Below, one piece after another: positions 6,829-29,227 of a stretch of 64,000 nucleotides of DNA (positions within the stretch are counted from its first letter, which is position 1; each line of letters opens with the position of its first letter). The notes beneath the pieces were generated by a model, which was given only the letters and a program-made list of their open reading frames with translations, did not search any database and was not told the DNA's origin. This stretch comes from Celeribacter sp. PS-C1 (GTDB lineage: Bacteria > Pseudomonadota > Alphaproteobacteria > Rhodobacterales > Rhodobacteraceae). The position numbers were made by a program, and so were the translations under genes. Location of the stretch: positions 1 to 64,000 of the forward strand of contig NZ_JAHXRW010000010.1 of assembly GCF_019429625.1 (NCBI RefSeq), given 5' to 3'.

Positions 6829-6846
6829 GGTTTTGAGAGAACCGAC

Positions 6847-9619: not shown

Positions 9620-9955
9620 AATGTCCTCCCTCGGGCCTTCTGTGCGTTCAGCCCACTCCTTGGCGTCGACGCGCTCCTCCAAGCCCTTTCGACTATTGCG
9701 CATTTGTTTGCCATAAACAAATTAATTGGTCAATGAATAACGTGAAGCCAATCTACGCATGTCCAGAATGTCGGGATATTGCACCCTAGATAGGGCATAA
9801 GCGAGGACGAATGGCCCCACAGTTTTGCAAAGCACGTTCTGCGACAATTTATTTTTTTGGAGACGGAACGAATCATTCTGTATATAGATAACAGACCAAA
9901 GTCAGCGCAGCGGGACAGGCGCTGCACCGGAAGAGTGCTAAGGTATAAAGGCGAA
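9620..9955. other. Divergent intergenic region between GMC gene and iclR pair
   Basis: A 336-bp non-coding spacer. It contains the GMC-side palindrome (listed separately) and, near the iclR side, an AT-rich stretch (9846-9900) with TGTATATAGATAAC that could hold the iclR promoter. No convincing small gene was seen. Confidence 0.6.
9702..9722. promoter_or_regulatory. Candidate IclR operator, GMC operon
   Basis: ATTTGTTT (9702-9709), spacer GCCAT, AAACAAAT (9715-9722): a perfect 8-bp inverted repeat 80-100 bp upstream of the GMC start. Its core TTTGCCATAAAC recurs with variation before five other units of this region. Assignment to an IclR regulator is inferred. Confidence 0.55.
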
Positions 9956-10765
9956 ATGGAACCCAAAAAAACAAAACCTCGCTCCGGCGCCCGCGGCATC
10001 CAGTCTATTGAAGTGAGCGGTCGCATCCTCAAAACACTGGTCAAAGCCGGCGCCCCGATGATGCTCAAAGACCTCGCACATGCCGCCGAACTGGCGCCTG
10101 CTCAGTGCCACGCCTATCTCACCAGCCTGCGCCACGTCGGCTTGGTCCATCAGGAATTCACCTCCGGCCTCTATAACATCGGCCCCATGGCCATGAGCCT
10201 CGGGTTTGGCTGGCTTAAAACCTCCCCGATCGCCTCGGCGTCCGTCGAGGCCCTCAAGGAACTGACCGAAGAACTGGGTCCAATGTCCGCCCTGATTTCC
10301 TGGAGCGACTTTGGACCGACGGTCGTCCACGTCAACACCGGCATGCGCCCCGCGACGGTAAACGTCAAACCGGGCACCTTGTTTTCCGTGACTGGCACCG
10401 CAACCGGGAGTATCTTTGCCGCCTTTGGGGATCCGGACGCCGTTGAAAGGCAGATCGCGATTGAACTGTCTCGAAAGACGTCGCGCGCCTCGCTCGGGCT
10501 CGAACCCATCCATGGCGACTACGCCGACAATCTGGAGAAAGTGCGCCGCGATGGATGTGCCACGGCAGAGGGTGCGCCGATCCCCGGCATCAACGCCATC
10601 GCACACCCCATCTTCGACAAAGACGGCAAGCTGGCGCTGGTCGCCACTTTGATCGGCCCCGCCGGTGAATTTGATGTCAGCGAAACATCTCACGCCATGA
10701 CCCGCCTCAAGGCGGTCGCACAAGGTCTGTCCGCAGGCGCTCAAGCCTCGGCAGCAGCCGAATAA
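9956..10765 (+). CDS. IclR-family transcriptional regulator (first of tandem pair)
   Basis: A 269-residue IclR protein. The start MEPKKTKPRSG follows AAAGG; the frame is open 33 codons further upstream without a site. The N-terminal winged helix is APMMLKDLAHAAELAPAQCH through LYNIGPMAMSLG, followed by the IclR effector domain (SDFGPTVVHVNTG, GTLFSVTGTATGSIFAAFG, PIPGINAIAHPIFDKDGKLA). It is followed 17 bp later by a second iclR gene and is divergent from the GMC operon, the classic layout for local control. The effector is unknown. Confidence 0.92.
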   Translation: MEPKKTKPRSGARGIQSIEVSGRILKTLVKAGAPMMLKDLAHAAELAPAQCHAYLTSLRHVGLVHQEFTSGLYNIGPMAMSLGFGWLKTSPIASASVEALKELTEELGPMSALISWSDFGPTVVHVNTGMRPATVNVKPGTLFSVTGTATGSIFAAFGDPDAVERQIAIELSRKTSRASLGLEPIHGDYADNLEKVRRDGCATAEGAPIPGINAIAHPIFDKDGKLALVATLIGPAGEFDVSETSHAMTRLKAVAQGLSAGAQASAAAE

Positions 10766-10782
10766 CAGGAGGGGTTATCAGT

Positions 10783-11598
10783 ATGGACACAGCATCCCCC
10801 ATCGCCCGCACAAAAGAAACCAAAAGCGAAGGTCGCGGCGTCCAGTCGATCGAACAGGGCGCCAAACTTCTGGCCGCCCTGGCGGACGAAGCCGAACCCA
10901 TGATGCTCAAAGACCTCGCGAAAGTCGCGGGGTTTGCTCCGGCTCAGGCGCATGCCTATCTGGTCAGCTACCGCAAGATCGGCATGATCGAGCAGGACGA
11001 AGACACAGGTCGCTATCGCCTCGGGCATTTTGCCATTGATCTGGGCATGACCCGCATGCGCGCCTCAGATCCCATCGAGATGGCCTGCGACGCGGCCAAA
11101 GAGCTGTCAAAGAGCACCTCTCTAAACGTCGCGCTGGTGGTTTGGGGATCGTTCGGGCCAACCGTCATTCACGTCTATGAAAGCGGCAGCCAGATCAACA
11201 TGAACACCCGCCCCGGCACCGTCTATTCGATGACTGGCACCGCCAGCGGCCAGATTTTTACGGCCTTTCTTCCGGAGACCGCCGTCAAGGAAGCGATCAA
11301 CAAGGAAAAACGCGAAGGCGCCTTGAGCGGTCGTGTTGGACAGGCACGCTTTGTGTCCAAAAAGGAATTGGATCAAATCCGCGATGCAGGCTTTGCCACG
11401 GTCGAAGACCCGCCCGTACCCGGCATTTCAGCCTTTTCCGCACCGATTTTCGACTACTCCGGCCAGATCATTCTGGCGATGACGATCATCGGAGAGGACC
11501 AGTATATCAACAGCGCGCTTGAAGACACTTTTATCCCCGCGCTTCTGGCGACGACGCAGAGACTCTCTGCTGAGCTGGGACACCGCGCTTCTCATTGA
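10783..11598 (+). CDS. IclR-family transcriptional regulator (second of tandem pair)
   Basis: A 271-residue IclR paralog of the preceding gene, with AGGAGGGG before its ATG. The helix-turn-helix region is EPMMLKDLAKVAGFAPAQAH with the wing ending GRYRLGHFAIDLG. The effector domain includes SFGPTVIHVYESG, GTVYSMTGTASGQIFTAF and VPGISAFSAPIFDYSGQI. The two proteins share the MMLKDLA-APAQ-HAYL recognition segment, so they may bind the same site or form mixed oligomers; this is inferred. A strong terminator follows, so the pair forms one bicistronic unit. Confidence 0.92.
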   Translation: MDTASPIARTKETKSEGRGVQSIEQGAKLLAALADEAEPMMLKDLAKVAGFAPAQAHAYLVSYRKIGMIEQDEDTGRYRLGHFAIDLGMTRMRASDPIEMACDAAKELSKSTSLNVALVVWGSFGPTVIHVYESGSQINMNTRPGTVYSMTGTASGQIFTAFLPETAVKEAINKEKREGALSGRVGQARFVSKKELDQIRDAGFATVEDPPVPGISAFSAPIFDYSGQIILAMTIIGEDQYINSALEDTFIPALLATTQRLSAELGHRASH

Positions 11599-11647
11599 CA
11601 GCATTCTGACCAACTCGGGCCAGCGCATCGCGAAGCCCAAATTACAA

Positions 11648-11672
11648 AGAGGGGCAAGCGCCCCTCTTTTTT
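11648..11672. terminator. Rho-independent terminator after iclR pair
   Basis: AGAGGGGC / GCCCCTCT stem with a 4-base loop and a T-run (TTTTTT) on the plus strand, located between the convergent iclR and ene-reductase genes. Confidence 0.9.
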
Positions 11673-11706
11673 GCTGCTATATCACATAGACGTGTCGCGC
11701 CCGACC

Positions 11707-12876
11707 TCAGTCAGCGGACGCGTCGCGCTCCGCCTTGAGTTTGCGCAGCACGGGCTCGCGTTTTTCCAACCATGCGCCATGGCGCTCATGCCAGCCCTCA
11801 AAGGACAGGCCAGACTCAAGTTCGCGCTGCGCCAGCGCTGGCCAGTAGGGATTTTCAAGCGCTGCGCGACCGATGGCGACCAAATCCGCCCGGCCGTTGG
11901 CGATGATGTCCTCGGCCTGCTGAGGCTCCACGATCAAACCGACCGCCTGTGTCTTCACATCGACTTCGCGGCGGACGCGTTCGGAAAAAGGCACCTGAAA
12001 GCCAAAGCCACGCGGCACATTCGAACGCCGCGTCTCCTCGGACAGACCACCGGACGAACAGTCTATCACATCGCCCCCAACGGCTTTGAGGCGCTCCGCG
12101 AGCACGACTGTCTCATCCATACCCCAGCCGCCTTCTGCACCGTCGACACACGAGAGGCGCGCGAAAAGCGGTTTCTCCTCCGGCCAAACGGCCCGCACGG
12201 CTTCGGCAATCTCGACCGCGATGCGCATGCGGTTGTCCAGACTGCCGCCATACTGATCCTCACGCTGGTTCGCCAAGGGCGACAGAAAGCTCGCCACGAG
12301 GTAGCCATGCCCGTAGTGCAATTCGACAACATCCATACCCGCAGCATCCGCTCGTCGGGCCGCATCGACATGCTGCTCGACAATCCGAGCGATCTCCTCG
12401 GCGGTCAAAGCCTCAGGCGTGCTCCATTCCGTGCTGGCCGGGATGGCACTCGGCCCCACTCGACGCCATGGCACATCTGCCGCATCAATTTCTTCCGGAC
12501 GCATCGCCTGCCCGCCATGCCAAAGCGGCTGCGAGAACGCTTTGCGACCGGAATGCGCCAGCTGAACGCCCATCAACGCCCCATTGTCATGGGCGAAATC
12601 GGCAAGACGTTTGAGGCCGGGGATATGATCGTCCGACCAGATGCCAAGGTCATCGACACCGACCCGACTGTCCGATGCGACCGCCGTGCTTTCTGTCAGC
12701 ACGAGCGCCGCACCGCCCAGAACGAATTTGCCGTAATGCACCACATGCCAGTCGGTCACATAGCCGTCCGATCCCGCGTGCTGACACATCGGAGAAATGG
12801 TCACACGGTTTTTGAATGTCCGCCCTCGAATGGTCAGGGGCTGGAATAGATGAGAAGATTGGCGTTCGAGGGTCAT
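11707..12876 (-). CDS. Old Yellow Enzyme, YqjM/XenA class ene-reductase
   Basis: A 389-residue FMN oxidoreductase that would reduce activated C=C bonds with NAD(P)H. The start MTLERQSSHLF is chosen over the longer frame for family fit and an AAAGG site. The class is read from ISPMCQHAGSDGYVTDWH (the flavin-tuning Cys of YqjM-type enzymes), VQLAHSGRKA and the substrate pair in VVELHYGHGYL, with SLDNRMRIAVEI typical of the barrel. It follows a TRAP transporter operon by 40 bp and probably acts on the imported compound. A second, different OYE (NemA class) is encoded at 16893-18020. Confidence 0.9.
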   Translation of the reverse strand: MTLERQSSHLFQPLTIRGRTFKNRVTISPMCQHAGSDGYVTDWHVVHYGKFVLGGAALVLTESTAVASDSRVGVDDLGIWSDDHIPGLKRLADFAHDNGALMGVQLAHSGRKAFSQPLWHGGQAMRPEEIDAADVPWRRVGPSAIPASTEWSTPEALTAEEIARIVEQHVDAARRADAAGMDVVELHYGHGYLVASFLSPLANQREDQYGGSLDNRMRIAVEIAEAVRAVWPEEKPLFARLSCVDGAEGGWGMDETVVLAERLKAVGGDVIDCSSGGLSEETRRSNVPRGFGFQVPFSERVRREVDVKTQAVGLIVEPQQAEDIIANGRADLVAIGRAALENPYWPALAQRELESGLSFEGWHERHGAWLEKREPVLRKLKAERDASAD

Positions 12877-12916
12877 AACGTGACCTTTCTTTTCGACGGT
12901 CGTTTCGGCTTTCGCC

Positions 12917-14254
12917 CTAGCGCAAGGAAAGCGGCAGTGAGAGCACCAGCTGTGGCATGGCAAGAATGAGGATGAGTGCCGAGATTTGGATCAACACAAA
13001 GGGCATCACGCCTTTGTAGATCGTGCTGATCGGTATCGAGCGGTCCACACCCCGCAGATAGAACAGGGCATATCCAAAGGGCGGCGTCAGGAACGAGGTC
13101 TGGAGATTGACCGCCAAAGCAATTGCGAACCAAAGGATCACGTCGCTGCTCGGCAAGCCGAAATCAAGACCACCGACGATGGGCGCCACGATCGGGATGA
13201 CCACGAGAGAAATCTCGACCCAATCCAGAAAGAACCCCAGAATAAAGATCAGGAACATGATCGCACCGAGTGTGACATAGGGGCTGACATCGCCGAAGGA
13301 GAAGAGATCCGCCACCATCGCGTCCCCACCCAAGCGGCGAAACACGAGGCTAAAGACGGTCGCCCCGATCATCACGAAGGCAATCATCGCCGTGGTTTTC
13401 GTGGTCTCAAACACAGCACGCTTGAGCGTGTTAAAGGACAGGCCCCCTGTGAACATCGCAAGCAAGGTCGCCCCGACCGCTCCGATTGCCGCGGATTCCG
13501 TTGGCGTCGCGACCCCTGTAATGATCGTCCCAAGAACCGCGAGGATCAGGACCATCGGCGCCAGAAGGTCTTTGATCAGCGCGAAAAACGCCTTACCCAA
13601 AGGCACCCCGTCGCGTCGCTCGGGAGCAGGCATCCGGTGCGGCGAAAAGATCGCCACGAGCAGGATGTAGGCAAAATAGAGCCCGGCGAGGATCAGCCCC
13701 GGATAGATCGCGCCCATGAAGAGATCGCCAATCGGCACACGCAGCTGATCGCCCAGAATGATCAACATGATCGAGGGCGGGATCAGAATGCCAAGCGTCC
13801 CCGAAGCGGCGACAACACCTGTTGCGAGCCGCATGTCATAGCCGGCCGCTTTCATCGCCGGCAAAGACATCATCCCCATCAGAACGACAGAGGCGCCAAT
13901 GATCCCCGTCGAGGCCGCCATCACCACGCCGATCACGACGACCGCAACGGCATAGCCACCTGGCAGCCCCCCTGCGAGTGCGGCCAGCGACCGCATCAGG
14001 CGCTCAGCGATGCCAGAGCTTTCCAGCATAAGCCCCATGAACACGAACAGAGGAATCGCGGCCAGCAACCAATTAGTCAGTGTGCCCGAATAGATGCGCT
14101 GCACCCCCATCGACAGGAAGACCATCGGCACATCCGCGATGACAGCGAAAAGGATACCGACACCCGCCAAAACAAACGCCACGGCAAACCCGCTGAAGAG
14201 CAGAGCAACCAGCGAGCAAAGCATCAAAATGGGCCATAGATACTCAGCGATCAT
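12917..14254 (-). CDS. TRAP transporter large permease (DctM)
   Basis: A 445-residue, highly hydrophobic protein of the DctM/SiaM family with about 12 membrane segments. Family features include LAAIPLFVFMGLMLESSGIA, ASGTLGILIPPSIMLIILG and TPTESAAIGAVGA. It forms the ion-coupled channel of a tripartite ATP-independent periplasmic importer in the inner membrane. Its start follows the dctQ stop by 2 bp, and dctP lies just upstream. An ene-reductase gene follows, so the solute may be an alpha,beta-unsaturated acid or its precursor; the ligand cannot be named from sequence. Confidence 0.95.
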   Translation of the reverse strand: MIAEYLWPILMLCSLVALLFSGFAVAFVLAGVGILFAVIADVPMVFLSMGVQRIYSGTLTNWLLAAIPLFVFMGLMLESSGIAERLMRSLAALAGGLPGGYAVAVVVIGVVMAASTGIIGASVVLMGMMSLPAMKAAGYDMRLATGVVAASGTLGILIPPSIMLIILGDQLRVPIGDLFMGAIYPGLILAGLYFAYILLVAIFSPHRMPAPERRDGVPLGKAFFALIKDLLAPMVLILAVLGTIITGVATPTESAAIGAVGATLLAMFTGGLSFNTLKRAVFETTKTTAMIAFVMIGATVFSLVFRRLGGDAMVADLFSFGDVSPYVTLGAIMFLIFILGFFLDWVEISLVVIPIVAPIVGGLDFGLPSSDVILWFAIALAVNLQTSFLTPPFGYALFYLRGVDRSIPISTIYKGVMPFVLIQISALILILAMPQLVLSLPLSLR

Positions 14255-14256
14255 GA

Positions 14257-14841
14257 TCAGTCTCCGGTGGTATGCGTGGCGTCATAGGTGTCGCCATATT
14301 GTTTTGTGATGAGCTGGCGCAGAGCCTGCGCGGCCCGGAGCAAAGCAGCGACACCCAACAGACCAAAGGACACCGGCAGCGCCCCTTTGATCAGCCAATG
14401 CGCGGTCAGGCCGCCCTGAATGGAGCCCTCTCCCGTTGCAAAGGCCGTCATCGCGAATTTCGATCCGAACCACATGACGAGCAGGCACAAGGGCAGCAGC
14501 AAAAAGAGATTTCCGAACAGCGAGATCATCGTTCGCAGGCGTGGGGAAAACCCGAGCGCCACAAAGTCGACCGTCACATGGCGATCTTCAAGATGCGCCC
14601 AGATCCCGCCAAAGAGGACGATGGCTGAGAAGATATACCATTGCAGATCGACGAGACTGTTGACGGTCAACGCCTCGCCAAACAAGGGCACGGAGCCCTC
14701 CCAATCGATCAGCACCGACCAGCCCTGACGCGCCGCAATGACAGACAGGACAATCGACAGGGCCAGCGGGATCACCAGCCACGACACGATTTTACCAGGG
14801 AAACACAGGAATTTTTGCACCACGGATGTCGGCTTGGTCAT
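14257..14841 (-). CDS. TRAP transporter small permease (DctQ)
   Basis: A 194-residue membrane protein with four predicted transmembrane segments, including SWLVIPLALSIVLSVIAA near the N-terminus. WAHLEDRHVTVDFVALGFSP is typical of DctQ proteins. It pairs with DctM to form the membrane part of the TRAP importer. It sits between dctP (90 bp upstream) and dctM (2 bp downstream). An ATG with GGAGGGGGCG upstream supports the start. Confidence 0.93.
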   Translation of the reverse strand: MTKPTSVVQKFLCFPGKIVSWLVIPLALSIVLSVIAARQGWSVLIDWEGSVPLFGEALTVNSLVDLQWYIFSAIVLFGGIWAHLEDRHVTVDFVALGFSPRLRTMISLFGNLFLLLPLCLLVMWFGSKFAMTAFATGEGSIQGGLTAHWLIKGALPVSFGLLGVAALLRAAQALRQLITKQYGDTYDATHTTGD

Positions 14842-14931
14842 CGCCCCCTCCTTTCGGTGTTATCATAATGGTCAGACGAAACCGCGACAGCGGCGACCAC
14901 GGTCGCCGCGTCACATGTCAGTCTGTCCGAT

Positions 14932-15963
14932 TTATTCGGCCGCCGGAAGGACCTGAAGCGCGGTCCATTCGCCAACGCCGTCCATATAGGCGCGCAGGGA
15001 GGCGAGCGCCTCGGCGAAGATCGGATCTTTCTCGGCTTGCTCGTCCAGAACCACATTGGCGGTTTCGCGCAGGCCAGCCAGAACCTCATCCGGGAAGCGG
15101 CGGATTTCCGTTCCAGCTTCGCGGATTTGAGCGATCGCCGGCCCTTGGGCGTTGATCTGATCCGCGAGGTTGAAGGTGATGTTGGCACGGCAGGCATCTT
15201 CGATAATGCTCTGGTTTTCTTCGCCCAGCTTCTCCCAAACCGCCTTGTTCACGATGATCGAGTCCCAGGACATCGGCTGATGCCAGCCCGGGAAGTAGTA
15301 GTACTCGGAGACCCGCTGGAACCCCATGCCCACGTCAAGCGAAGGGGCGGAGAATTCGGCCGCATCGAGGCGCCCGGTTTCGAGGCTCAGATAGATCTCG
15401 CCTGCGGGAACGGTCTGGGTGTTTGCGCCCAGTTTGGCCAGCGTCAGCCCGCCGAGACCCGCGATGCGCATGTTCAGGCCCTGGAAATCTTCGACCGAGT
15501 TGATCTCCTTGTTGAACCAGCCACCGGCCTCAGACACCACGAGGTGGCAGGGCACGAATTGGACATTAAAGGGATCATAGGCCTTTTGAATGATCTCTTT
15601 GCCGCCACCGTGGAACATCCAACCCATAGCCACTTCGGGAGAGGGACCGAAAGGCATCGATCCGACGAGGTTTGCGACGGGGATTTGCTGGCTCCAGTAA
15701 CCCGCCCAATCGAAACCCATGTCGAGCGCGCCAGAGCTGACGGCGCCGAACACTTCATAGGGCGGTACGAAATCGCCCGCGCCATGCACGTTGATTTCGA
15801 CCTCACCTCCGGTCATTTCCGAAACCATGCGCGCGAAATTCTTCGGGCTTTCACCCAGCGACGGTACGTTCAAACCAAACGTGCTCTGAAGCTCATAGGC
15901 GTTGGCCGGCGTGGTTACTGCGAATGCGGCCGTTGCCGCAGCAATCATTGCGAAGTGTTTCAT
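14932..15963 (-). CDS. TRAP transporter periplasmic solute-binding protein (DctP)
   Basis: A 343-residue precursor with a signal peptide (MKHFAMIAAATAAFAVTTPA, cut near ANA/YE). The mature part is a DctP/TakP-type binding protein, shown by SLGESPKNFARMVSEMTGG, GAVSSGALDMGFDWAGYWSQ, GLNMRIAGLGGLTLAKLGAN and LSLETGRLDAAEFSAPSLD. The last contains the family's conserved region following the ligand-binding Arg (MRIAG). The gene is first in dctP-dctQ-dctM-ene reductase and has GAGGAGG before its start. The TakP-like pattern suggests a carboxylate ligand, but which one is not decidable here. Confidence 0.94.
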   Translation of the reverse strand: MKHFAMIAAATAAFAVTTPANAYELQSTFGLNVPSLGESPKNFARMVSEMTGGEVEINVHGAGDFVPPYEVFGAVSSGALDMGFDWAGYWSQQIPVANLVGSMPFGPSPEVAMGWMFHGGGKEIIQKAYDPFNVQFVPCHLVVSEAGGWFNKEINSVEDFQGLNMRIAGLGGLTLAKLGANTQTVPAGEIYLSLETGRLDAAEFSAPSLDVGMGFQRVSEYYYFPGWHQPMSWDSIIVNKAVWEKLGEENQSIIEDACRANITFNLADQINAQGPAIAQIREAGTEIRRFPDEVLAGLRETANVVLDEQAEKDPIFAEALASLRAYMDGVGEWTALQVLPAAE

Positions 15964-16051
15964 CTCTGGTCTCCTCCTCCTAGAGAACGGGCGGCGTTGT
16001 CGTGTGCGTTTCTTCCACTAGGCCCGCGACCTCCCAGTGTAGTTGTATTAT

Positions 16052-16077
16052 TGCAAATTGATTATCCATAAACCAAT
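16052..16077. promoter_or_regulatory. Candidate IclR operator, dctPQM operon
   Basis: TGCAAATTGATTATCC (from 16052) continuing ATAAACCAAT. It differs from the 28283-28310 site by a single-base gap and four or five substitutions, and it shares CCATAAAC with the GMC site. It lies about 90 bp upstream of dctP. Function is inferred from recurrence. Confidence 0.5.
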
Positions 16078-16258
16078 ATTTCGTCAAGAATATAGTTTCA
16101 ACCGCAACCATAAACACACCCCAAAGAGCCACAGAACATCCCAGAAAGACCAAGCAAGGCCCGACATCACTGAGGCAAAAATGGCTTTGAAACATAGTGT
16201 TGCGGCGTCACCCACGAGATCGACGGGCGTGAAGCAGAGCGAAAAGCTCTCCCCCCAA

Positions 16259-16309: not shown

Positions 16310-16364
16310 CAAGACAGGCCTCCGGAGTTTCGCGGCTAGGACGCCTGCCTTAACAGAACCGCCC

Positions 16365-16823
16365 TTAGCGGAACTTTTGCTTCACCCAGCCCTGATCCCA
16401 GTTCGAGACCTGATGGGTGCTGCCACGCAGCTCTTTGAAGAACCACTTGCCATCCTGTTTCACGAATTGATTGGTGTAGTTCAACGTCAGCACCACGGCA
16501 TCCTCTCCGATGGTGCAGAAGCACAGCAGATAGGAATGCGAGGTGGCGCTTTTGCCATCCTCATGCACATCGATGCGCATGTTGGTCACAATGTGGATCG
16601 CCCAAGAGATGTGCTGTGACAGCTGACGGAAATGCTCGCGGATTTCCTCGCGACCATTGTTGGAGCCGCCTTCGCCATCCACGACCCAGACGCCATCTTC
16701 CGTGAAACAGTTGGCGATTCCGTCGGGGTTGTAGTTGTCGTCACAATACGCCGCATATTGGAATGTCAGCTTCTCGATTTCCTGAATGTCCTCTAGGCGC
16801 TGAATGCGTTGTTCAATATCCAT
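16365..16823 (-). CDS. SnoaL-like / NTF2-fold protein
   Basis: A 152-residue protein of the SnoaL-like superfamily: N-terminal helices (LEDIQEIEKLTFQYAAYCDD), then CFTEDGVWVVDGEGG and WAIHIVTNMRIDV, which form the cone-shaped NTF2 fold. Members include isomerases, dehydratases such as scytalone dehydratase, and small hydroxylase subunits; the reaction cannot be chosen from sequence. It is the last gene of the six-gene operon starting at 23579, 69 bp after the NemA-class ene-reductase gene. A role on an intermediate of the same pathway, such as isomerising or dehydrating a cyclic compound, is a reasonable inference. Confidence 0.82.
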   Translation of the reverse strand: MDIEQRIQRLEDIQEIEKLTFQYAAYCDDNYNPDGIANCFTEDGVWVVDGEGGSNNGREEIREHFRQLSQHISWAIHIVTNMRIDVHEDGKSATSHSYLLCFCTIGEDAVVLTLNYTNQFVKQDGKWFFKELRGSTHQVSNWDQGWVKQKFR

Positions 16824-16892
16824 GATTTTCTCCTCCGATTTCTATGGAATTCTGTGGCGGACGCGCGGCTCCCGCGCGCCCGATCCGGTCGC

Positions 16893-18020: not shown

Positions 18021-18075
18021 GGTTTCCTCCTGTTTTGACTGTGGTTTTCGAAATCTGCGAAAGGCGGCGTGGCGC

Positions 18076-18840: not shown

Positions 18841-18872
18841 AGTTTTTCCTCCTCTTAAACTTTGCTGAGCGT

Positions 18873-21413: not shown

Positions 21414-21500
21414 GACCTACCCCCTCCTCCAGAGCAGTTGGACAATGCGTTTGTGTCCCCGGACCCCGGCCGCGATGACGACCGGGATCGCGGGCGTGTC

Positions 21501-22559
21501 TTATTGGTTGATCGCCTCGAGTTGCTTCTCCGGGCTCAGTTTTGCCGAGAGGTAAATCTCACCTGGCAAATCGCGACGGCATTGCACCTCGCTCGGGTCA
21601 CCCGTGACGGAGTCCTCGAAAATCTCAGAGGTGTAGACGCTGGTCTCGGGCGGCGTGCCACCAGTGGCCAGTGCGATCGCCCATTGTGCGGCCAAGCGCC
21701 CGTTCTCATTGCCGCCGCCACGGGTCAGCAATTTAAAGTCCGGGTTGTTGGCCTGTTTGTCCTGCCAGAAGCAGCCCAGAAGATTGACGGATTCTGTGGT
21801 GATCGCGGGGATAGACCGCCCGTTGCGCTCAAAGGCAGGCAGACCACCGATCAGAGACGCGCCGTAGTCGGAGATGATCACATCGATCTGCGGGTGTTTC
21901 GCGATCTCGGCGGTCAGCACCTGTTGCGTCAGCGCCGGATCCCAGTTGGTCACATGGAAAGGCGCGGGGTTGAGGTATTCGTAGCGCTCATCGAGTACAG
22001 AATTCAGCCCTTCGAGCATCTCAAGCCCGACGCTGTTGCCCGCCGGTCCGCTGAGGAACAGCATTTTCGCGCCATCAGGGAATTCGCGCTTGATGAAGTT
22101 GCCGAAATTCACGCCATCGCTCACGAAGGAGGCCGATACGAATTTGGCGTAGTTCACCCCCTCTTCGCCGCCGACCTGTTGACGATAGGGCACGACCGTC
22201 ACACCTGCGCGATGCGCCGCGGTGAGCGCCGGAAGCACAGCAGGACCGGCATCGCCAAAGACCACCATGGCGTCGACCCCACGAGCCGCAAAGCTCTTGA
22301 TGTCGGAAATGGATTTCTGCGTGTCGCCCTGGCCGTCGGCGTAGAAGAAATCGGTAATGCTCGGGCACTTCTCAGCCTCTTCGCGCGCAGAGGCGCTGGT
22401 GATCTGGCGCCAGCTGTTGCCGCCGCTGCCGTCGAGCAAGGCCAGCGTTGCGCTCTCCGGCCCGCACCAGGGCGGGACGTCCTCTGCAAAGGCCGCGGTG
22501 GCGGCAAGGGTCAGGGCCGTTGTGGCCGCGAAAGCAATCTTTCTGGATGTAAGTGTCAC
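21501..22559 (-). CDS. Periplasmic sugar-type ABC substrate-binding protein (paralog 2)
   Basis: A 352-residue precursor with a signal peptide (MTLTSRKIAFAATTALTLAA, cut near AFA/ED). It is RbsB-like, with SATLALLDGSGGNSWRQITS, GVDAMVVFGDAGPAVLPAL and FHVTNWDPALTQQVL. The pattern matches paralogs at 6847 and 27128 (NPADAQKA in those becomes DPALTQQV here), though this copy is more distant. It is placed between the permease gene and the ATPase-permease fusion gene, so it is the cognate binding protein of this importer. Confidence 0.92.
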   Translation of the reverse strand: MTLTSRKIAFAATTALTLAATAAFAEDVPPWCGPESATLALLDGSGGNSWRQITSASAREEAEKCPSITDFFYADGQGDTQKSISDIKSFAARGVDAMVVFGDAGPAVLPALTAAHRAGVTVVPYRQQVGGEEGVNYAKFVSASFVSDGVNFGNFIKREFPDGAKMLFLSGPAGNSVGLEMLEGLNSVLDERYEYLNPAPFHVTNWDPALTQQVLTAEIAKHPQIDVIISDYGASLIGGLPAFERNGRSIPAITTESVNLLGCFWQDKQANNPDFKLLTRGGGNENGRLAAQWAIALATGGTPPETSVYTSEIFEDSVTGDPSEVQCRRDLPGEIYLSAKLSPEKQLEAINQ

Positions 22560-22601
22560 GGTGTCTCCTCCTCTAAAGTCCGTGTCGGTGAAAATCGGGG
22601 A

Positions 22602-23579
22602 TCAGTTGCGGCGGAACGAATAGATCGCGATGCCAAGACCCAGCGCGAGCGCTTGGATGATGGTCTGGGCCGAGAACGGCACGCCGATGGTGATCGAGAA
22701 CTGGCCCAGTTGGGTCAGGAAGAATGCTGCCAGCGCCGTCGGTACGGGAAAGCCCCGTCCGCCCATCAAGGATGTCCCACCGAGCACGACAATCGCCACG
22801 GAGGGCAGCAGGTAGCTGTTGCCGAGAAAGGCGGTCGGCTGGCTCGTCAGACCAGCCAGCAGAATCCCGGCCAGGCAGTAGAGCAGCTGCGCGCTGACGT
22901 AAGCGGAAATTTCGTAGGAACGAACGCGCAGACCCACGGTACGTGCCATCGCCGGATTGGCACCAATGCCCTCGTACCGGCGGCCTGCGACAGTCTTTTT
23001 GAGCACGATCGACACCAAGAGAACGATGGCGAGCGCGTACCAAACCGTATAGCCAAGCCCCAGAAACTCACCGCCTGCGATGCGCGACAAAAGCGGCGTA
23101 GTCGTGCGCGGCACACCTCCGGAAATCGCGATAACACCGCCGTAAAGCAGCGCGTTCGTGCCAATGGTGGCCACGATAGCGTTGAGACGCACGACACCGA
23201 TCAAGATGCCGTTGAACAGACCTGCGCCAAGCGCGAAGGTCAGCGCCAGCAAGACGGCGGGCAAGAGTTCCGCGTCATTGCCCGCAGGGTAATGTGTCGA
23301 GATCACAACCGCGAGGCTGATGGCGCCGGGAACAGACAGGTCGAAACCACCCTGCTGAACCACAAGCATCTGCCCAAGACTGACGATCACCGCCACGGCC
23401 GCGAAGGGCAGACTTCCCGCAAGCGCGCCCGAGGTGATGCTCGAGGGCGCGAAGATCATGCACAGCACGATCAGCGCCAGCGTCGACAGCAACACGGTCC
23501 CAAGCTCGAACGACAGCCGATCACGGCTGAACAGGCTGGGCGGCATTGTGCCATAGGGTGCATTGTTTGCAGTTTTCAT
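22602..23579 (-). CDS. Sugar-type ABC transporter permease (RbsC-like)
   Basis: A 325-residue inner-membrane permease of the BPD_transp_2 family with about 8-10 membrane segments. The start MKTANNAPYG is chosen for GGAGGACGC upstream; the frame continues another 25 codons without such a site. Family signatures are VVQQGGFDLSVPGAISLAVV, the cytoplasmic EAA-like region GANPAMARTVGLRVRSYEIS, and AIVVLGGTSLMGGRGFPVPT. It is the first conventional gene of the six-gene operon and likely pairs with the membrane half of the fusion protein at 18873-21413 as a heterodimer. Confidence 0.93.
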   Translation of the reverse strand: MKTANNAPYGTMPPSLFSRDRLSFELGTVLLSTLALIVLCMIFAPSSITSGALAGSLPFAAVAVIVSLGQMLVVQQGGFDLSVPGAISLAVVISTHYPAGNDAELLPAVLLALTFALGAGLFNGILIGVVRLNAIVATIGTNALLYGGVIAISGGVPRTTTPLLSRIAGGEFLGLGYTVWYALAIVLLVSIVLKKTVAGRRYEGIGANPAMARTVGLRVRSYEISAYVSAQLLYCLAGILLAGLTSQPTAFLGNSYLLPSVAIVVLGGTSLMGGRGFPVPTALAAFFLTQLGQFSITIGVPFSAQTIIQALALGLGIAIYSFRRN

Positions 23580-23592
23580 CACGCGTCCTCCC

Positions 23593-23694
23593 TCAGATAC
23601 ACGCAAAGACCGGCGACGCATCTGCCAGCCATAGGCCAGCAGAATTCGGGGCACGGCCCGCGCTTGCGGACCACGCCAGGCGGTCTGTCGCCAT
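23593..23694 (-). CDS. Possible 33-residue leader peptide
   Basis: A short frame starting MATDRLAWSASAGRAPNSAG and ending ...VFACI, preceded by GGGAGGAAATCAGACC and closed 13 bp before the permease start, in a different frame. A GAGGGG-N6-CCCCTC hairpin (23714-23731) lies just before its ribosome site. Nothing in the peptide is recognised. It could be a real leader ORF controlling the ABC operon, or chance; no homolog evidence is available here. Confidence 0.3.
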   Translation of the reverse strand: MATDRLAWSASAGRAPNSAGLWLADASPVFACI

Positions 23695-23760
23695 GGTCTG
23701 ATTTCCTCCCTTTGAGGGGTGTGCGCCCCTCACATCATGGGTAGCACACTATTTGTAATG

Positions 23761-23786
23761 CGCAAATAAATTTGCCATTATCGTAT
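23761..23786. promoter_or_regulatory. Candidate IclR operator, ABC operon
   Basis: CGCAAATAAATTTGCCATTA (from 23761) with GCAAA-N4-TTTGC as an internal inverted repeat. TTTGCCAT is shared with the GMC site at 9702, and a GCGCA lies upstream of the core in both. It lies 67 bp before the possible leader ORF. Function is inferred. Confidence 0.5.
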
Positions 23787-24157: not shown

Positions 24158-24187
24158 TTAAAAATGGCGCCCGGTATCCCGGACGCC
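24158..24187 (-). terminator. Terminator of the EthD gene
   Basis: Minus-strand stem GGCGTCCGG / CCGGGCGCC (24166-24187, one mismatch, 4-base loop) followed by ATTTTTAATTTT, 60 bp after the EthD stop. Confidence 0.8.
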
Positions 24188-24249
24188 AGAATTATCGATT
24201 CAGCTATATCGAATAACAGACATCACGAATCACGGAGCGATTCGCATGA

Positions 24250-24945
24250 TCAAACGATCTGACGGCTCTCCACAAAGTAGGGCGTGATCGTATCAAGAAA
24301 GACCTTCGCGTGTTCCTGCGTTTCCGTCACGATGTCTTTGGCGTAGAGCTCTGCAGCAGCTTCTTTGTCCCGAAACCAGAACTCAACGATCCCATCGACT
24401 GGCACCTCATCATGACTTGCCTGCTCAGTGCGCGACCCATGATATCGACCCACCACAAGATTTTGATGATACCCCAACACACCCGGCCAACGGCGCACGA
24501 AATTTGCATGGGTCTCAAGCCACTCCTGACGAAAGCGCTCGGGGCTTACCCCCGGCAACCGCTTCAAAAGCGTCATTCTCTTGATGTAAGGGCCATCATC
24601 CAAGTCCATTTCGACAACCTTGTGCTTTTCACAAGCGACAATCTTAACATCTTGCAGAAAATCAGTTTCATCTGACAAAGCCGGCGCAAAAGAGTCATCA
24701 TTCACCGCACTGATCATCGCGTCTTCATCATCGAAATAAAGCTCCGAGAACCCGTCCAGATCCCAATCCATTCCCCGCGCATGGCTGATGCCGAATTGTT
24801 CCTTGTCGGTCACCGCATGCTGCCAATACCCGCGCAAGCCAGAAAATCTGGAGGCCATCGGCCCATGAACACCCTCCCAATGCTGATTGAAATCCTGTGA
24901 CGGCATTCCCTGCTTTTTCGTCAGCAGACCAAACCTTGTCATCAT
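24250..24945 (-). CDS. Tandem EthD-domain protein
   Basis: A 231-residue protein made of two EthD-like (dimeric alpha-beta barrel) repeats. Repeat 1 (about 3-105) has KKQGMPSQDFNQHWEGVHGP and GLRGYWQHAV. Repeat 2 (about 121-228) has LPGVSPERFRQEWLETHANF and GVLGYHQNLV. The start MMTRFGLL is set by GGAGGAG seven bases upstream; the frame extends 32 codons further. EthD proteins take part in ether or alkyl-cleaving and related catabolic systems, and many have no known reaction. It is a single-gene unit with its own operator-like palindrome and a terminator. A fused pair would fold as an internal dimer. Substrate unknown. Confidence 0.85.
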   Translation of the reverse strand: MMTRFGLLTKKQGMPSQDFNQHWEGVHGPMASRFSGLRGYWQHAVTDKEQFGISHARGMDWDLDGFSELYFDDEDAMISAVNDDSFAPALSDETDFLQDVKIVACEKHKVVEMDLDDGPYIKRMTLLKRLPGVSPERFRQEWLETHANFVRRWPGVLGYHQNLVVGRYHGSRTEQASHDEVPVDGIVEFWFRDKEAAAELYAKDIVTETQEHAKVFLDTITPYFVESRQIV

Positions 24946-25276
24946 GTGCGAACTCCTCCTCGTAAGTTCAGAAAGTTTAAAAACGGGCTCATCACCCAGC
25001 CCTCCGCTCAGACGCAGATCTGCACTCATGTCGAGAAACACACCCCTCCAAATAGCTCCAATCGGTCAGCCCGAGAACCTTCAGAAACGCCTCAATTCAG
25101 CGGCGGGCAATTATGATATTTGCAAATTACTTTGCTTAAAGCAAATTATTTAGAAATGACTGGCGCTCTTTCTCCCTGCCCGAAAGCGTTTCAGGCAGCC
25201 GCAATCCGCACCTGACTGTCACCAGATGGAAATGAGGAAGAAAATTGGGAGATAGGACAGGAGCCCGAGCGCATCC
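24946..25276. other. 331-bp spacer upstream of the EthD gene
   Basis: Non-coding stretch between the double-IclR stop and the EthD start. It contains the palindromic operator candidate at 25121-25146. No gene was seen; no clear terminator for the IclR gene was found. Confidence 0.55.
25121..25146. promoter_or_regulatory. Candidate IclR operator, EthD gene
   Basis: TGCAAATTACTTTGCTTAAA followed by GCAAAT. It contains TTTGCTT-A-AAGCAAA, a perfect 7-bp palindrome at 25131-25145, and shares TGCAAATT with the dctP site. It lies about 180 bp upstream of the EthD start. Confidence 0.5.
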
Positions 25277-26902
25277 TTACTTGGGCACAGCATATCCCAA
25301 ATCGGCAGAGATCGCCGCAACGCCCGACAGAAGTTGCTCTAGCAAAGCATCCTCCTCGGCGCGCACCCGGTCTATTGCGCCCGTCAAGGTCACCGCAAAC
25401 CACATCTCTCCCACATGGTTGCGCACCGGCGCCACCAGAGAGCGAAGCCCCACAACGGGGCCGGTCTCGAACGTCGCATATCCCGTCTGCCGGATCTCTT
25501 CCAGCATCACCGAAAGATCCTCCGGACTGGGCGCGCGCGCTCTCAACTGCGGATAAACTGCCATCTCGGCGGCCACCGCTGGGGCCAAGACCTGTTGACT
25601 GAGATTGGCCTGGAACAAACGCCCGGTGCCAGAGCTACTTAGCGGCATGCCGCGGCCCAGATAGATATCGGAATGGCGCGCCATCTGGCCACGTTCGATA
25701 TGCACGACGACCGGGCCATAACTGCCCCACGTTGTTAGAAAACACATCAAACCCGTTTGCCGCGACAAGCGCCGCACAAGGGCACGCGCCGCAGCAAAAG
25801 CATCATAGCTGTGTAAACGCACAAGCAACATCTCGGCCGTCAACGGCCCAAGGCGATATTGCGTCGAGCCGGGCGCCTTTTCCACCAGACCCGCATGACG
25901 CAGGCTGACCATGTAGCTATGCGCCTTGCCAGCGGCCAGCCCAGCCTGATCACAGATTTCCTTGAGCCTCATCGGCCCCGCCCGCCCCGTCATCGCGCGC
26001 AAAATCTGGACCGCAGTCTCTGCCGAGCCAACCCCGCGCCGCTCATCCGCGGCGGCATCGACCGGCTCAAAAAGCTCTTTGCGCACCGGATCGATCCGCG
26101 TCACCTCTGGCGCCGAAATCGTAGATGGCTTGGCCGCAATCCGCTCCGCCAGTTCGGTTCGAATGCGCTCCGCGAGACGACGCGCAATCTCCTTTGGAAA
26201 CACCTTTGCGGTCCCGGACACAACGATTGCGCAGACCAGTTCCCCGTCCTCATCCATGACCGGAACGGCCATGCCATTGTACCCTGGGAAATAAGCGTCG
26301 CGAATGAAGCAGTATCCATCCCGGCGCACCTCCTCCACAGCCTCCGTGAAATCTTCATCCTCACGCAGTTCACCAACCCCGCGCGGACAGGCCGTGCCTG
26401 CCAGCTCTGCTTCTGCACGCGCCGCCACGCGCGGATCGGAGGAAAATGCCATGAACACCCGTCCCGATGCGGTGCCGGTAACACTGTAGACTGTGCCGGG
26501 CATCACATTGTTGTCGGAGGCCATTCGGGACGGGATCACACTAGCCACGGTTGGCCCAATCCCAGCCCAAAACACAACACCCGCGAAAAGGTCGCGTTCT
26601 CGCGCAATACCACGCGCCGCATCCAGAAAACCGTAGCGCCGCGCCAGCGCCTCGATACGCCGTTGACCAAGCAAGGCGGCCAGTGGACCAAAGGAATATT
26701 GCCGGGACATCGGATCATAAACCCCGAGACCGGTCCGCTGAAGACTGTTCAAATAGGGCCGCACCTTCGCGGTCGATAGCCCGGACGCATCCGCCACGCC
26801 ATCAAGAGAGGTCCGCTCACCCGCATGAATCATCCCGGACAGGATATCTCCGAACACCTCGACGGATTTGATGCCCCGAACTGCGCCGTTTTCCTTTGTC
26901 AT
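25277..26902 (-). CDS. Double-length IclR-type regulator (two fused IclR units)
   Basis: A 541-residue protein, twice the normal IclR length. Unit 1 (1-255) has a winged helix (TSLDGVADASGLSTAKVRPY, residues 31-50) and an effector domain (PGTVYSVTGTASGRVFMAFS). After a linker (about 255-290), unit 2 (290-541) repeats the plan: MRLKEICDQAGLAAGKAHSY (311-330) then SYGPVVVHIERGQ, LSSSGTGRLFQANL and LRSLVAPVRNHVGEMWFAV. IclR proteins normally act as dimers or tetramers of single units, so this could be a built-in heterodimer reading two half-sites or two ligands. It sits between the EthD gene and the third binding-protein gene. I see no stop or frame change between the halves. Confidence 0.9.
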   Translation of the reverse strand: MTKENGAVRGIKSVEVFGDILSGMIHAGERTSLDGVADASGLSTAKVRPYLNSLQRTGLGVYDPMSRQYSFGPLAALLGQRRIEALARRYGFLDAARGIARERDLFAGVVFWAGIGPTVASVIPSRMASDNNVMPGTVYSVTGTASGRVFMAFSSDPRVAARAEAELAGTACPRGVGELREDEDFTEAVEEVRRDGYCFIRDAYFPGYNGMAVPVMDEDGELVCAIVVSGTAKVFPKEIARRLAERIRTELAERIAAKPSTISAPEVTRIDPVRKELFEPVDAAADERRGVGSAETAVQILRAMTGRAGPMRLKEICDQAGLAAGKAHSYMVSLRHAGLVEKAPGSTQYRLGPLTAEMLLVRLHSYDAFAAARALVRRLSRQTGLMCFLTTWGSYGPVVVHIERGQMARHSDIYLGRGMPLSSSGTGRLFQANLSQQVLAPAVAAEMAVYPQLRARAPSPEDLSVMLEEIRQTGYATFETGPVVGLRSLVAPVRNHVGEMWFAVTLTGAIDRVRAEEDALLEQLLSGVAAISADLGYAVPK

Positions 26903-27072
26903 CTCGTGGTGCCACCCAAGTTCCAGCTCTTCGTTGATGTCATTCGACCATACTCCACGGAACGGTCAAGAACATATCCCGCACGTAGGTTCCCCTTTGG
27001 TAACAGCTTTGTCCGCCGCGTGACATCGGCAGAACATGCAAATCGAAACACGTGTTTCACCGAAACAGAAAA

Positions 27073-27099
27073 CCGGATCGCCCGTAAAAGGCGATCCGG
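27073..27099 (-). terminator. Terminator of binding protein 3
   Basis: Perfect 10-bp stem CCGGATCGCC / GGCGATCCGG with a 7-base loop, followed on the minus strand by TTTT, 29 bp after the binding-protein stop. Confidence 0.85.
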
Positions 27100-27127
27100 C
27101 GATGTCAGAGCGTCAGGTCATGCGGCC

Positions 27128-28216
27128 TCACTGCTCAAAAAGCGCCACCATTTTGTCCATCGGCAAAGACGAGGACAGATCTGCATCCGGCGGCAGCTCT
27201 GGGTCGCAGAGCGGATCGACACCGGCCGCGCTGTCAGCAAACGGGAAGGCAACCAGCGCCCTCGGCTCCGGAGCCTCAAGCCCATTGCGCGCCGCCAGAC
27301 CCGCCCGCAAAGCAAACCGAACATCAGCGGTGGTTCCGCTCAGCGCGAGTTGCGGCCAGACATCTCCGCTCTCTTTGGCCTCCATCCATTTGCAGCTGTA
27401 TTCATTGTTGGTCGCAATGAACGCCATCGCCGGCACGGGCAAACCTGCAGCCTGATAGGCTTTGACGGCCGCAAGACTGGTCACCCCGTAATCCGTCGCA
27501 ATCGCGTCAATCTCGGGATATTTCGCAATCAAACCCGCCACCGCTTTTTGCGCATCTGCAGGGTTCCAGTTCGTGACGATGAAATTGTCATCCAAAAGCT
27601 CGACCTCGGGATAGGCTTTCAGGCCCTCTTTATAGCCTTCGAGGAAGGTCACCGACGAGGCAGATCCAGCCAGACCACCGAGGAAGACCGTCTTGCCCTC
27701 GCCGATGGTCTCCCCAACCCACTCGCCAAAGATTGATCCGGCGCGGAACGCATCCTCAAACGGGTTCGCAGCATAATCGACCCCAACCTGACCGCTCAGA
27801 TCCGAGAAATACGGCACCATCGTCGTCCCGGCCATCTGGGCGGACCGATAGGCCGGGATCGCCGCATCGCCAAAGTCCGTATAGGCCACGATGATTTCAT
27901 AGCCTTGGGCGACGAACCCGTTGATCGCGGCGCTATAGGCCTGCAAATCCCCTCCGGCTTCGGCGTAGGTCACCTCGACGATATTCTCGCATTTCGAGGC
28001 CTCGTCCTCGATTTCGGCAAAGGCCGTTCGGCGCCACGAATTGCCGCCATAGCCATCGACCAGAGCGACACGGATCGGCTCCTCCCCGCACAACGGCGTA
28101 ATGTCGACATGTTCGTTCACATAGACGAAGTCCTCCGCAAGCGCGCCTTGCGCCCAAAGGGTCGCAACCGTGGCCGCGGCAATTCCGAGACCGGTCGCCC
28201 GATACGTTTTGTGCAT
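27128..28216 (-). CDS. Periplasmic sugar-type ABC substrate-binding protein (paralog 3)
   Basis: A 362-residue precursor. The start MHKTYRATGLG is set by GGGAGGA upstream. A signal peptide ends near GALA/ED. The mature protein closely resembles paralog 1: PIRVALVDGYGGNSWRRTAF, GYEIIVAYTDFGDAAIPAYR, NFIVTNWNPADAQKAVAGLI and ATDYGVTSLAAVKAYQAAGL, and even the C-terminal PPDADLSSSLP. It is a monocistronic unit with its own operator candidate and terminator and no linked permease. It probably shares the transporter at 18.9-23.6 kb, widening its ligand range; that is inferred. Confidence 0.92.
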   Translation of the reverse strand: MHKTYRATGLGIAAATVATLWAQGALAEDFVYVNEHVDITPLCGEEPIRVALVDGYGGNSWRRTAFAEIEDEASKCENIVEVTYAEAGGDLQAYSAAINGFVAQGYEIIVAYTDFGDAAIPAYRSAQMAGTTMVPYFSDLSGQVGVDYAANPFEDAFRAGSIFGEWVGETIGEGKTVFLGGLAGSASSVTFLEGYKEGLKAYPEVELLDDNFIVTNWNPADAQKAVAGLIAKYPEIDAIATDYGVTSLAAVKAYQAAGLPVPAMAFIATNNEYSCKWMEAKESGDVWPQLALSGTTADVRFALRAGLAARNGLEAPEPRALVAFPFADSAAGVDPLCDPELPPDADLSSSLPMDKMVALFEQ

Positions 28217-28282
28217 TTCTCTTTCCTCCCTTGATGAAGGCCACGGCGCCGCTCCTCTTTCAGCACCGAACCCTTTGATGAA

Positions 28283-28310
28283 TGGCAAATTGATTTTGCC
28301 ATTAACTAAT
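28283..28310. promoter_or_regulatory. Candidate IclR operator, binding protein 3
   Basis: TGGCAAATTGATTTTGCCA (28283-28301) is an inverted repeat (TGGCAAA / TTTGCCA, 5-base spacer) followed by TTAACTAAT. It is nearly the dctP site (GCAAATTGATT shared) and keeps TTTGCCAT of the GMC and ABC sites. It lies 67 bp upstream of the start. Confidence 0.58.
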
Positions 28311-28341
28311 GACTTAATGAGAATAACCTTCCAGCGCAGGC

Positions 28342-29079
28342 TTAGAACAAATTCGGCATGCCGCTGGTTTCCCCACCATCCGCAACAAATTCGGCGCCGG
28401 TGGAGAACGAGCTGTCATCGCTGGCCAGGAACATCACCAGCTTGCTGATCTCGCCGGGCTCGCCCACACGGTTCATCGGAACATGCCGATAATCTGCGTA
28501 GAGCCCATCAACCATGTCTGTGTTGATGTTTCCGGGATGGACCGAATTCACCCGAATGCCCTTTGACGCAAGCTCGACAGCTGCCGCCTTCGTCAAGCCG
28601 CGAATGCCGAATTTCGACGCGATATAGGCCGGAACGCCGGAAAACCCTTTGAGCCCGGACGTCGAAGAGATGTTGACGATAGACCCGCCGCCGCCATCCT
28701 CCATGAGCGGCGTAACTGCACGTATACCTTTGAAAGTGCCGCTAAGATTGATGCCGATCACCTGCTCCCACTCATCATCCGAACAGCTGACAATATCAGA
28801 AAACCGCAGAATCCCGGCATTGTTCACAAGCACGTCGATACGCCCAAATTGGGCCTTCGCCGCGGCCACTGCCGCCTGCCAATCTTCAGATTTTGTAACA
28901 TCGAGACGCACCGCAATCGCAACATCCTCTCCCAACTCGGCCGCCAGAGCCTGCACCTCATCCTCAAGAACATCACCCAATACGAGCTTTGCTCCTGCCG
29001 CCGCGAAGTCTCGCGCCTCGGTCGCGCCCATGCCTCGAGCCGCCCCACTGATCAAGACGACCTTGCCAGCAACATTCAT
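28342..29079 (-). CDS. Short-chain dehydrogenase/reductase
   Basis: A 245-residue classical SDR. The start MNVAGKVVLISG is fixed by GGAGAG upstream and by the cofactor motif position; the open frame runs 65 codons further. The cofactor loop is SGAARGMG (11-18), then NNAG, with catalytic Ser138/139, Tyr152 and Lys156 (YIASK). It resembles 3-alpha/20-beta-hydroxysteroid and cyclic alcohol dehydrogenases, so it may oxidise a cyclic alcohol; this is a family-level guess. It is monocistronic, with a weaker operator-like match upstream. Confidence 0.92.
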   Translation of the reverse strand: MNVAGKVVLISGAARGMGATEARDFAAAGAKLVLGDVLEDEVQALAAELGEDVAIAVRLDVTKSEDWQAAVAAAKAQFGRIDVLVNNAGILRFSDIVSCSDDEWEQVIGINLSGTFKGIRAVTPLMEDGGGGSIVNISSTSGLKGFSGVPAYIASKFGIRGLTKAAAVELASKGIRVNSVHPGNINTDMVDGLYADYRHVPMNRVGEPGEISKLVMFLASDDSSFSTGAEFVADGGETSGMPNLF

Positions 29080-29198
29080 GATCTCTCCTCCTAAAAAATC
29101 TTCACCGCAAGACCACGCCTCCAAACGCAATCTGCGATGCGGATGTGCCTCCTCACAGCGGACCTCTCGCCCGACATCATCCAGAATCATTTTTAACA

Positions 29199-29227
29199 TT
29201 GGAAAATTGAATAGCAAATGTTTAATT
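29199..29227. promoter_or_regulatory. Candidate IclR operator, SDR gene
   Basis: TTGGAAAATTGAATAGCAAA then TGTTTAAT. This is a weaker match to the 28283 site (AAATTGA and GCAAAT kept), about 120 bp upstream of the SDR start. Confidence 0.35.

Follow-up and report, generated by a model that had tools for sequence, protein, structure and literature searches.

Arrays of alternating boxes before six uptake and oxidation units of Celeribacter sp. PS-C1 as probable operators of paired and fused IclR-family regulators

The window analysed here is the whole 64-kb stretch at the start of contig C2 (NZ_JAHXRW010000010.1) of Celeribacter sp. PS-C1, a genome of 3.87 Mb. It contains a block of transport and oxidation genes, in which two modules can be told apart. 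Module 1 (about 5-16 kb) encodes an aldehyde dehydrogenase, periplasmic binding protein 1, a GMC oxidoreductase, the tandem IclR-family genes iclA and iclB on the plus strand, and an OYE-family oxidoreductase with the TRAP transporter genes dctMQP. Module 2 (about 16-29 kb) encodes SnoaL, OYE and short-chain dehydrogenase/reductase (SDR) proteins with a sugar-type ABC transporter, an EthD protein, a double IclR regulator (F), periplasmic binding protein 3 (BP3) and an SDR. Six sites located upstream of minus-strand units of this block are, as judged from sequence comparison, very probably operators of the IclR-family proteins that the block encodes. The evidence computed here comprises their sequence, conservation and architecture, their concentration in the genome, and their association across genera with IclR genes related to iclA and iclB (A/B-related genes). 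G, C and L numbers designate the genomes, contigs and loci compared.

The element was modelled from other genomes. A Gibbs sampler (width 28, both strands allowed) was run on 16 upstream regions picked by homology of a neighbouring gene (dctP, GMC, EthD or iclA), with the source genome and its closest syntenic relative, Aquimixticola (G061), left out; several of the regions had been inspected by eye before the run. The de novo motif, TTGCAAATnnATTTGnnnATnACTAACA, was found in all 16 regions and always on the strand of the gene. It reached 497 bits vs 274-290 bits in six resampled sets, a gap (497 vs 290) that is somewhat flattering because the null sets were given fewer restarts (3 seeds x 150 sweeps vs 10 x 300). 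A position weight matrix (PWM) was built from 15 of these sites, leaving out the iclA site of G197. Seventeen of the 19 top window matches of this outside-trained matrix fall on the six sites, and the other two are one place before hgmA. At 14 bits or more there were 13 matches in the window (11 on the six sites and 2 at hgmA) vs 0.2 expected, and the best score among 30 random 64-kb windows was 16.9. A chain model, in which a single 9-bp box derived from the outside sites is used three times in 9- or 10-bp steps, gave six peaks of at least 17 bits in the 64 kb (BP3, ABC, GMC, EthD, TRAP and the hgmA place, the last with 19.0); the chance expectation is 0.075 per random window, with a maximum of 19.3 among 40. 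High scores were also obtained for sites outside the training set, namely those before iclA in G014 (26.1 bits), G003 (20.8 bits) and G001 (24.9 bits) and that at the BP3 position of G001, which has different letters and scores 23.7 bits.

Table 1 Coordinates of the putative operators, regulators and transcription units in the window
Feature	Position	Strand	Basis, score or remark
GMC operon array, four alternating boxes (9705, 9715, 9724, 9734)	9705..9742		PWM 28.5 bits (rank 2); chain 25.3
dctP (TRAP dctPQM-OYE) array, boxes 16051, 16060, extra 16078	16051..16086		PWM 18.8 (rank 7); chain 20.5
Sugar-type ABC operon three-box array (23750/23760/23769)	23750..23777		PWM 30.6 (rank 1); chain 27.1
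EthD array, boxes 25120, 25139, 25148	25110..25156		PWM 18.9 (rank 6); chain 21.5
BP3 three-box array, boxes 28283, 28293, 28303	28283..28311		chain 29.4, window's best; PWM 11.7
SDR array, weakest	29190..29227		PWM 21.4 (rank 3); conserved block in 3 genomes
Possible degenerate site before iclA	9866..9893	+	8.3 bits; aligns with iclA sites of G014, G003, G001
IclR-A, first of conserved tandem pair	9956..10744	+	PF01614, PF09339; groups with other A proteins and FN, 99/98
IclR-B, second of pair	10783..11598	+	PF01614, PF09339; B clade 100/99
Fused double IclR regulator F, 541 aa, halves FN and FC	25277..26902	-	two IclR_C domains
GMC oxidoreductase - periplasmic binding protein - aldehyde dehydrogenase unit	5265..9619	-	Pfam; start from orthologs
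dctP-dctQ-dctM TRAP transporter and OYE-family oxidoreductase	11707..15963	-	Pfam
ABC permease, binding protein, fused ABC ATPase-permease, SDR, OYE, SnoaL unit	16365..23654	-	Pfam
EthD / MmlI-like protein	24250..24945	-	Pfam; start from orthologs
Periplasmic binding protein 3 (BP3)	27128..28216	-	Pfam; start from ATG position
SDR oxidoreductase	28342..29079	-	Pfam; start from ATG position
MarR-type gene	4682..5197		4.5 kb from nearest of six sites

The original prediction described the sites as AT-rich palindromes. All six were located where it had placed them, and the letters of the window contain its repeats as written: ATTTGTTT-N5-AAACAAAT (9702-9722, overlapped by the GMC array), TTTGCTT-A-AAGCAAA (25131-25145) and TGGCAAA-N5-TTTGCCA (28283-28301). 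Its shared core GCAAATTGATT occurs at 16053 and 28285. A further core, TTTGCCAT, does occur at 9707, 23771 and 28295, but it is also present at 1135, 11029 and 16551 within the first 32 kb, so that this short core is not special by itself. While the repeats are real, the feature shared by the sites is an array of alternating boxes and not a simple palindrome. The putative operator unit is a 9-bp box (about TGACAAATC; about TnrCAAAtn) that is repeated in alternating direction every 9-10 bp. When the matrix is compared with its own reverse complement, two strong registers of 7.9 and 7.8 bits are found 9.5 bp apart (99th percentiles of column-shuffled matrices: 7.2 for the best register and 2.9 for the second best), and a direct repeat at 19 bp scores 3.9 bits vs a 99% null of 2.2. 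Two registers 9.5 bp apart together with a 19-bp direct repeat indicate three boxes of alternating direction. The central spacer box, TTTG, is conserved.

Scanning the whole source genome with the pattern TNGCAAATNNATTTGNNNATNACNAA (up to three mismatches) revealed four matches, all of them in the block (GMC, ABC, EthD and BP3), and the ABC array matched without a mismatch. The reversed pattern, used as a control, had no match in any of the five genomes scanned. Equal frequency of the motif before unrelated genes had been named beforehand as an outcome that would speak against the regulon, and this outcome was not observed. The same pattern has two of its three matches in the block in Aquimixticola, the third being beside flgI; five of six matches in G001 are in two blocks (three places, two of which matched on both strands), and the one match of G014 is in the block. 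The sixth match of G001 (L111 1501, C3:220036; 21.0 bits) lies before a sugar-type ABC ATPase gene. The single match of G003 (L105 1501, C14:94467; 21.9 bits) lies ahead of an SDR gene and 4.5 kb away from the stretch examined for its block. Both are candidates for further targets in the relatives. Simpler expressions were discarded: the core GCAAA-N4/5-TTTGC was too loose (22 genome places vs 10 for its reversed control), the exact TGGCAAA-N3-6-TTTGCCA was too strict (1 genome place), and the first regular expression, GCAA-N5-7-TTGC, gave a match in just 2 of the 16 regions to which it was applied.

Five of the six sites stand out amid the otherwise diverged upstream DNA of relatives. The GMC site is present in five genomes (the window, Aquimixticola, G014, G003 and G001), and a related element is found in G197 as well. 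Five genomes also carry the dctP site, in one version in the window and Aquimixticola and in another in G014, G003 and G001. The ABC, EthD and SDR sites are conserved in three genomes each, the ABC site in both of the other genomes aligned; the EthD site is close in Aquimixticola (21.3 bits) and more diverged in G001 (18.5 bits).

Further analysis indicates that in other genera, too, the element occurs with A/B-related IclR genes, in a setting of rearranged or different neighbours. In G266, G539, G278, G136 and G619 it is found near a single B-like IclR gene, and no homolog of the GMC, hgmA or MarR genes of the window was detected in the examined stretch of these five genomes at E 1e-15. Of 64 loci taken only for some other IclR gene (excluding A/B pairs and F, and reaching about 1.5 kb to each side), three include a match of at least 15 bits: L061, beside a B-like IclR gene of G276 (22.6 bits), L024 (20.2 bits) and L021 (15.1 bits). 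The site in L024 (1298; G033, a more distant relative) lies directly before an IclR gene and possibly represents the same operator type with another regulator. In G406, G654 and G673, the 4-kb locus of the DctP homolog (52-54% identity) contains no site (best 5.9 bits), and these genomes have no IclR-B match at E 1e-15, whereas G266 has one. The positive side of this comparison is circular, as seven of the eight close DctP orthologs (at least 66% identity) trained the matrix and the eighth is the window's own; therefore only the negative side, the three homologs without a site or a B-like IclR, counts. With the exception of G516 and G460, which are considered below, the sites cluster around the regulator gene and are retained together with it, as in a local regulon.

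The source genome encodes 12 IclR_C matches in 11 proteins. Three IclR-type genes do lie in the block, as originally counted, but they encode four IclR modules, since F is a double IclR. IclR_C scores are 44.3 bits for A, 58.5 for B and 108.7 for F (two stretches) vs a curated cut-off of 24, and HTH_IclR (helix-turn-helix) matches were found in A, B and FC. No separate HTH stretch was recognised by Pfam in FN. The AlphaFold (AF2) model of F (pLDDT 80.7, pTM 0.76; low-confidence linker 260-287) contains two winged HTH and effector halves, and its helices 12-27, 33-40 and 44-57 and strands 60-63 and 68-71 suggest that a winged HTH is present in FN. F shares 93% identity with its counterpart in Aquimixticola soesokkakensis and 87% with that of G001, a relative of the same genus.

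The A-B tandem pair was found in the window, Aquimixticola, G014, G003, G001, G197 and G182. Its recognition-helix region (PAQ-x-HAYL) is nearly the same in A and B of the window, G014, G197 and G182; it has diverged furthest in FN. FN joins the A proteins in one tree (Table 1) and, with 99/97, in a second tree that leaves out three long or distant rows; the A group without FN is weak (90/29 and 84/57). In both trees FC forms a long branch that falls outside B, and a tree holding B and FC together was not rejected (p-AU 0.098). These relationships suggest that F was likely derived from a complete A-B pair. A separate A-B fusion is encoded on contig C7 of G001 (L052 9591-11822) beside EthD and GMC homologs, in one open frame of 743 aa with a true start probably near residue 194. 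One half branches within the A group and the other within the B group; the former is a long branch that is placed less surely than the latter. If F came from such a pair, the two separate fusions indicate two fusion events. The degenerate site before iclA is possibly autoregulatory.

Sites of this architecture have been predicted before. According to Suvorova and Gelfand 2021 (PMC8222616), IclR three-box sites of alternating direction are predicted in 32 ortholog groups, with GKTYCRYW3-4RYGRAMC as group 1 and TGRAACAN1-2TGTTYCA as group 2. Our sites show three alternating boxes, of which one pair resembles group 1 and the other group 2, and so are of this already predicted kind with different box letters (TGCAAAT-like here, TGRAACA there). 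The regulogs described there are also alike in including DctPQM and AraH-MglA-RbsB transporters; the differences are the four boxes of the GMC site here and a regulator in the form of a pair or a double IclR. The PcaU, PobR and HmgR operators, as given in the same paper, likewise have a third box beside a palindrome; their extra box is, however, a direct repeat, and the boxes are of GTNCG type. The IclR operators of the original prediction are supported by this three-box layout, predicted for IclR proteins, and by the way in which the element tracks A/B-related IclR genes across genera, so far as sequence comparison can tell.

The top fold match of F in the PDB is 5w1e (PobR with 4-hydroxybenzoate), with 544 alignment columns, one known structure of double IclR length. 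Like F, which holds two IclR modules in one chain, it consists of one polypeptide (526 residues, of which 500 are in the model), as expected of two modules; identity over the fold alignment is 19%, with a TMq of 0.53. This PobR is that of Streptomyces coelicolor, from another phylum, and controls 4-hydroxybenzoate genes (pobA). Zhang et al., writing in Nucleic Acids Research in 2018, reportedly described it as an apparent fusion of two IclR proteins, with which the chain length and alignment are consistent. No 4-hydroxybenzoate gene was named among the window genes in Pfam scans, and no genome search aimed at pobA was made. The closest solved sequence to B (3e-30), and to the C-terminal half of F (2.7e-20), is Pseudomonas aeruginosa HmgR (5y6i). 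Homogentisate genes adjoin the block here; HmgR differs from F in being a single IclR, with 29% identity in the fold alignment. The conserved tandem pair of diverged IclR proteins and the double-IclR fusion are the less familiar part of the system, and our literature searches on paired or fused IclR proteins, with most subscription journals outside their reach, gave no paper on the subject.

The place before hgmA (3952-3988) is three-box-like, with CGAA instead of CAAA boxes. It scores 19.7 bits in the window, 23.4 in Aquimixticola, 21.1 in G014, 15.5 in G001 and below 15 in G003, and may serve as an operator for A/B or for an HmgR-like IclR whose gene lies elsewhere. Between it and hgmA lies a palindrome, GTTGC-N4-GCAAC (3933-3946), that is found in five aligned genomes with one base changed in G014 and that may be an operator of the MarR-type gene.

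The gene starts listed in Table 1 include corrections. The GMC start was moved from 9703 to 9619, as two orthologs begin at that residue, an ATG position; consequently the GMC site is upstream of the gene and makes no contact with it. The starts of EthD (near 24945, from orthologs), BP3 and SDR (both from the ATG position) were also corrected. Counterparts of module 1 occur in G014, G003, G001 (contig C2) and Aquimixticola, and those of module 2 in G001 (contig C1) and Aquimixticola. The sugar-type ABC protein at 18873-21413 (846 aa) has two ATPase domains fused to a permease domain. The EthD domain of the EthD protein is followed by a stretch like MmlI (methylmuconolactone isomerase), which is slightly below the cut-off. 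At the window edge (192-1166) a metallo-beta-lactamase-fold protein is 91% identical over residues 6-324 to a protein of G266, whose gene (L095 16049-17329) adjoins the TRAP operon, while the DctP proteins of both genomes are only 73-74% identical; a recent transfer of the window-edge gene is possible. The substrate of the block is not evident from its gene families. As a guess only, the gene roles (alcohol and aldehyde oxidation, enone reduction, transport) could point to catabolism of an unsaturated alcohol-type or alicyclic compound.

Could the elements mainly represent a promoter type common to these units (sigma-70 -35/-10, AT-rich spacer) and not operators? The outer boxes of the GMC and dctP sites fall on TTGAC/TTGCAA and TAAC/TAAT-like hexamers that lie about 17 nt apart, and 14 of the 16 outside sites lie 88-167 nt upstream of the start codon, all 16 being on the strand of the gene. 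A general promoter would, however, be expected genome-wide, and the pattern has only its four matches in 3.87 Mb. The conserved TTTG of the spacer box and the alternation of the boxes with helical spacing do not suit a promoter either, nor does the strand of the best window match, which is the gene's own for ABC, GMC and SDR but the opposite one for EthD and TRAP. We consider it improbable that promoters are the main explanation. An assignment to another regulator, be it the MarR-type protein (4682-5197) or an IclR encoded elsewhere in place of A, B and F, would draw on the number of IclR_C matches in the genome and on the location of the MarR gene, 4.5 kb from the nearest site. Yet the element lies near a single B-like IclR in the five genomes without GMC, hgmA and MarR homologs, it also precedes iclA genes, and the different palindrome before hgmA, two genes from MarR, would suit MarR better; this assignment seems unlikely to us. 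The G+C content of the six intergenic stretches, in their initial delimitation, is 38-57% vs 59% for the window, and chance palindromes are more easily imagined in such AT-rich DNA. In 300 resamplings of intergenic composition (2,835 bp each) no single run had more than one peak of 17 bits or more, with a mean of 0.08 and a highest score of 26.0, and the sites are conserved over diverged flanks, so that chance may practically be set aside.

Several points weigh against the sites, or some of them, being IclR operators. The outer boxes of the GMC and dctP sites resemble -35/-10 hexamers (TTGAC or TTGCAA, then 17 nt), and part of the conservation may therefore be that of a promoter. The box layout and the IUPAC pattern were chosen after the window sites were known, while the matrices come from outside sites only. 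Single boxes fall under the box threshold in the dctP array (the third in-register box, near 16070) and the EthD array (between 25120 and 25139). BP3 alone is in the random range of the fixed-spacing matrix, with 11.7 bits, and Aquimixticola does not share its letters; the spacing of its boxes is 10/10 and not 10/9, and with free spacing it becomes the top peak of the window. The SDR site, rightly ranked weakest beforehand, has one box under the threshold and stays below 17 bits in the chain model, though it is a conserved block in three genomes. Family-wide, at least 207 of 394 genomes have at least one pattern match, so that the pattern alone is not diagnostic and the background is too high to rank genomes. 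Finally, in G516 and G460 a TRAP operon (33-34% DctP identity) with a B-like IclR as its neighbour shows no 15-bit site, and the protein of G516 (E 1.5e-55) is nearly as near to B as that of G266.

If the six sites are IclR operators, dimers or tetramers of A and B, or the single-chain F, would bind the alternating boxes as two overlapping dyads per array, one helical turn apart, in a position that would overlap or adjoin the promoter. Judging from the family, bound IclR would repress import (TRAP, ABC and the binding proteins) and oxidation (GMC, aldehyde dehydrogenase, OYE, SDR and EthD), and binding of a substrate or intermediate to the effector domain would lift the repression. The modules, adjacent in this genome, probably go back to two separate regulons, one of A/B and one of F, whose operators were almost identical, which makes cross-regulation between the two regulons likely. 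In G001 they are split over different contigs, with the A/B pair on one and the fused regulator on the other, and the window may accordingly combine two responses that are related and use similar operators. We further put forward, tentatively and as something rather doubtful, that A and B are an obligate hetero-pair whose two diverged subunits divide between them the neighbouring boxes of an alternating three- or four-box operator, that the pair has been fused at least twice (F and the fusion of G001), and that this strain has two-gene and one-chain versions on nearly the same operators, so that one DNA code would read two related effector signals.

These results assign a likely operator, regulator and gene set to a roseobacter uptake-and-oxidation block. 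Since the same operator type is found beside a two-gene pair and beside fused doubles with a fixed subunit order, the block may offer a natural test system for the IclR prediction of alternating boxes and two dimerisation modes.

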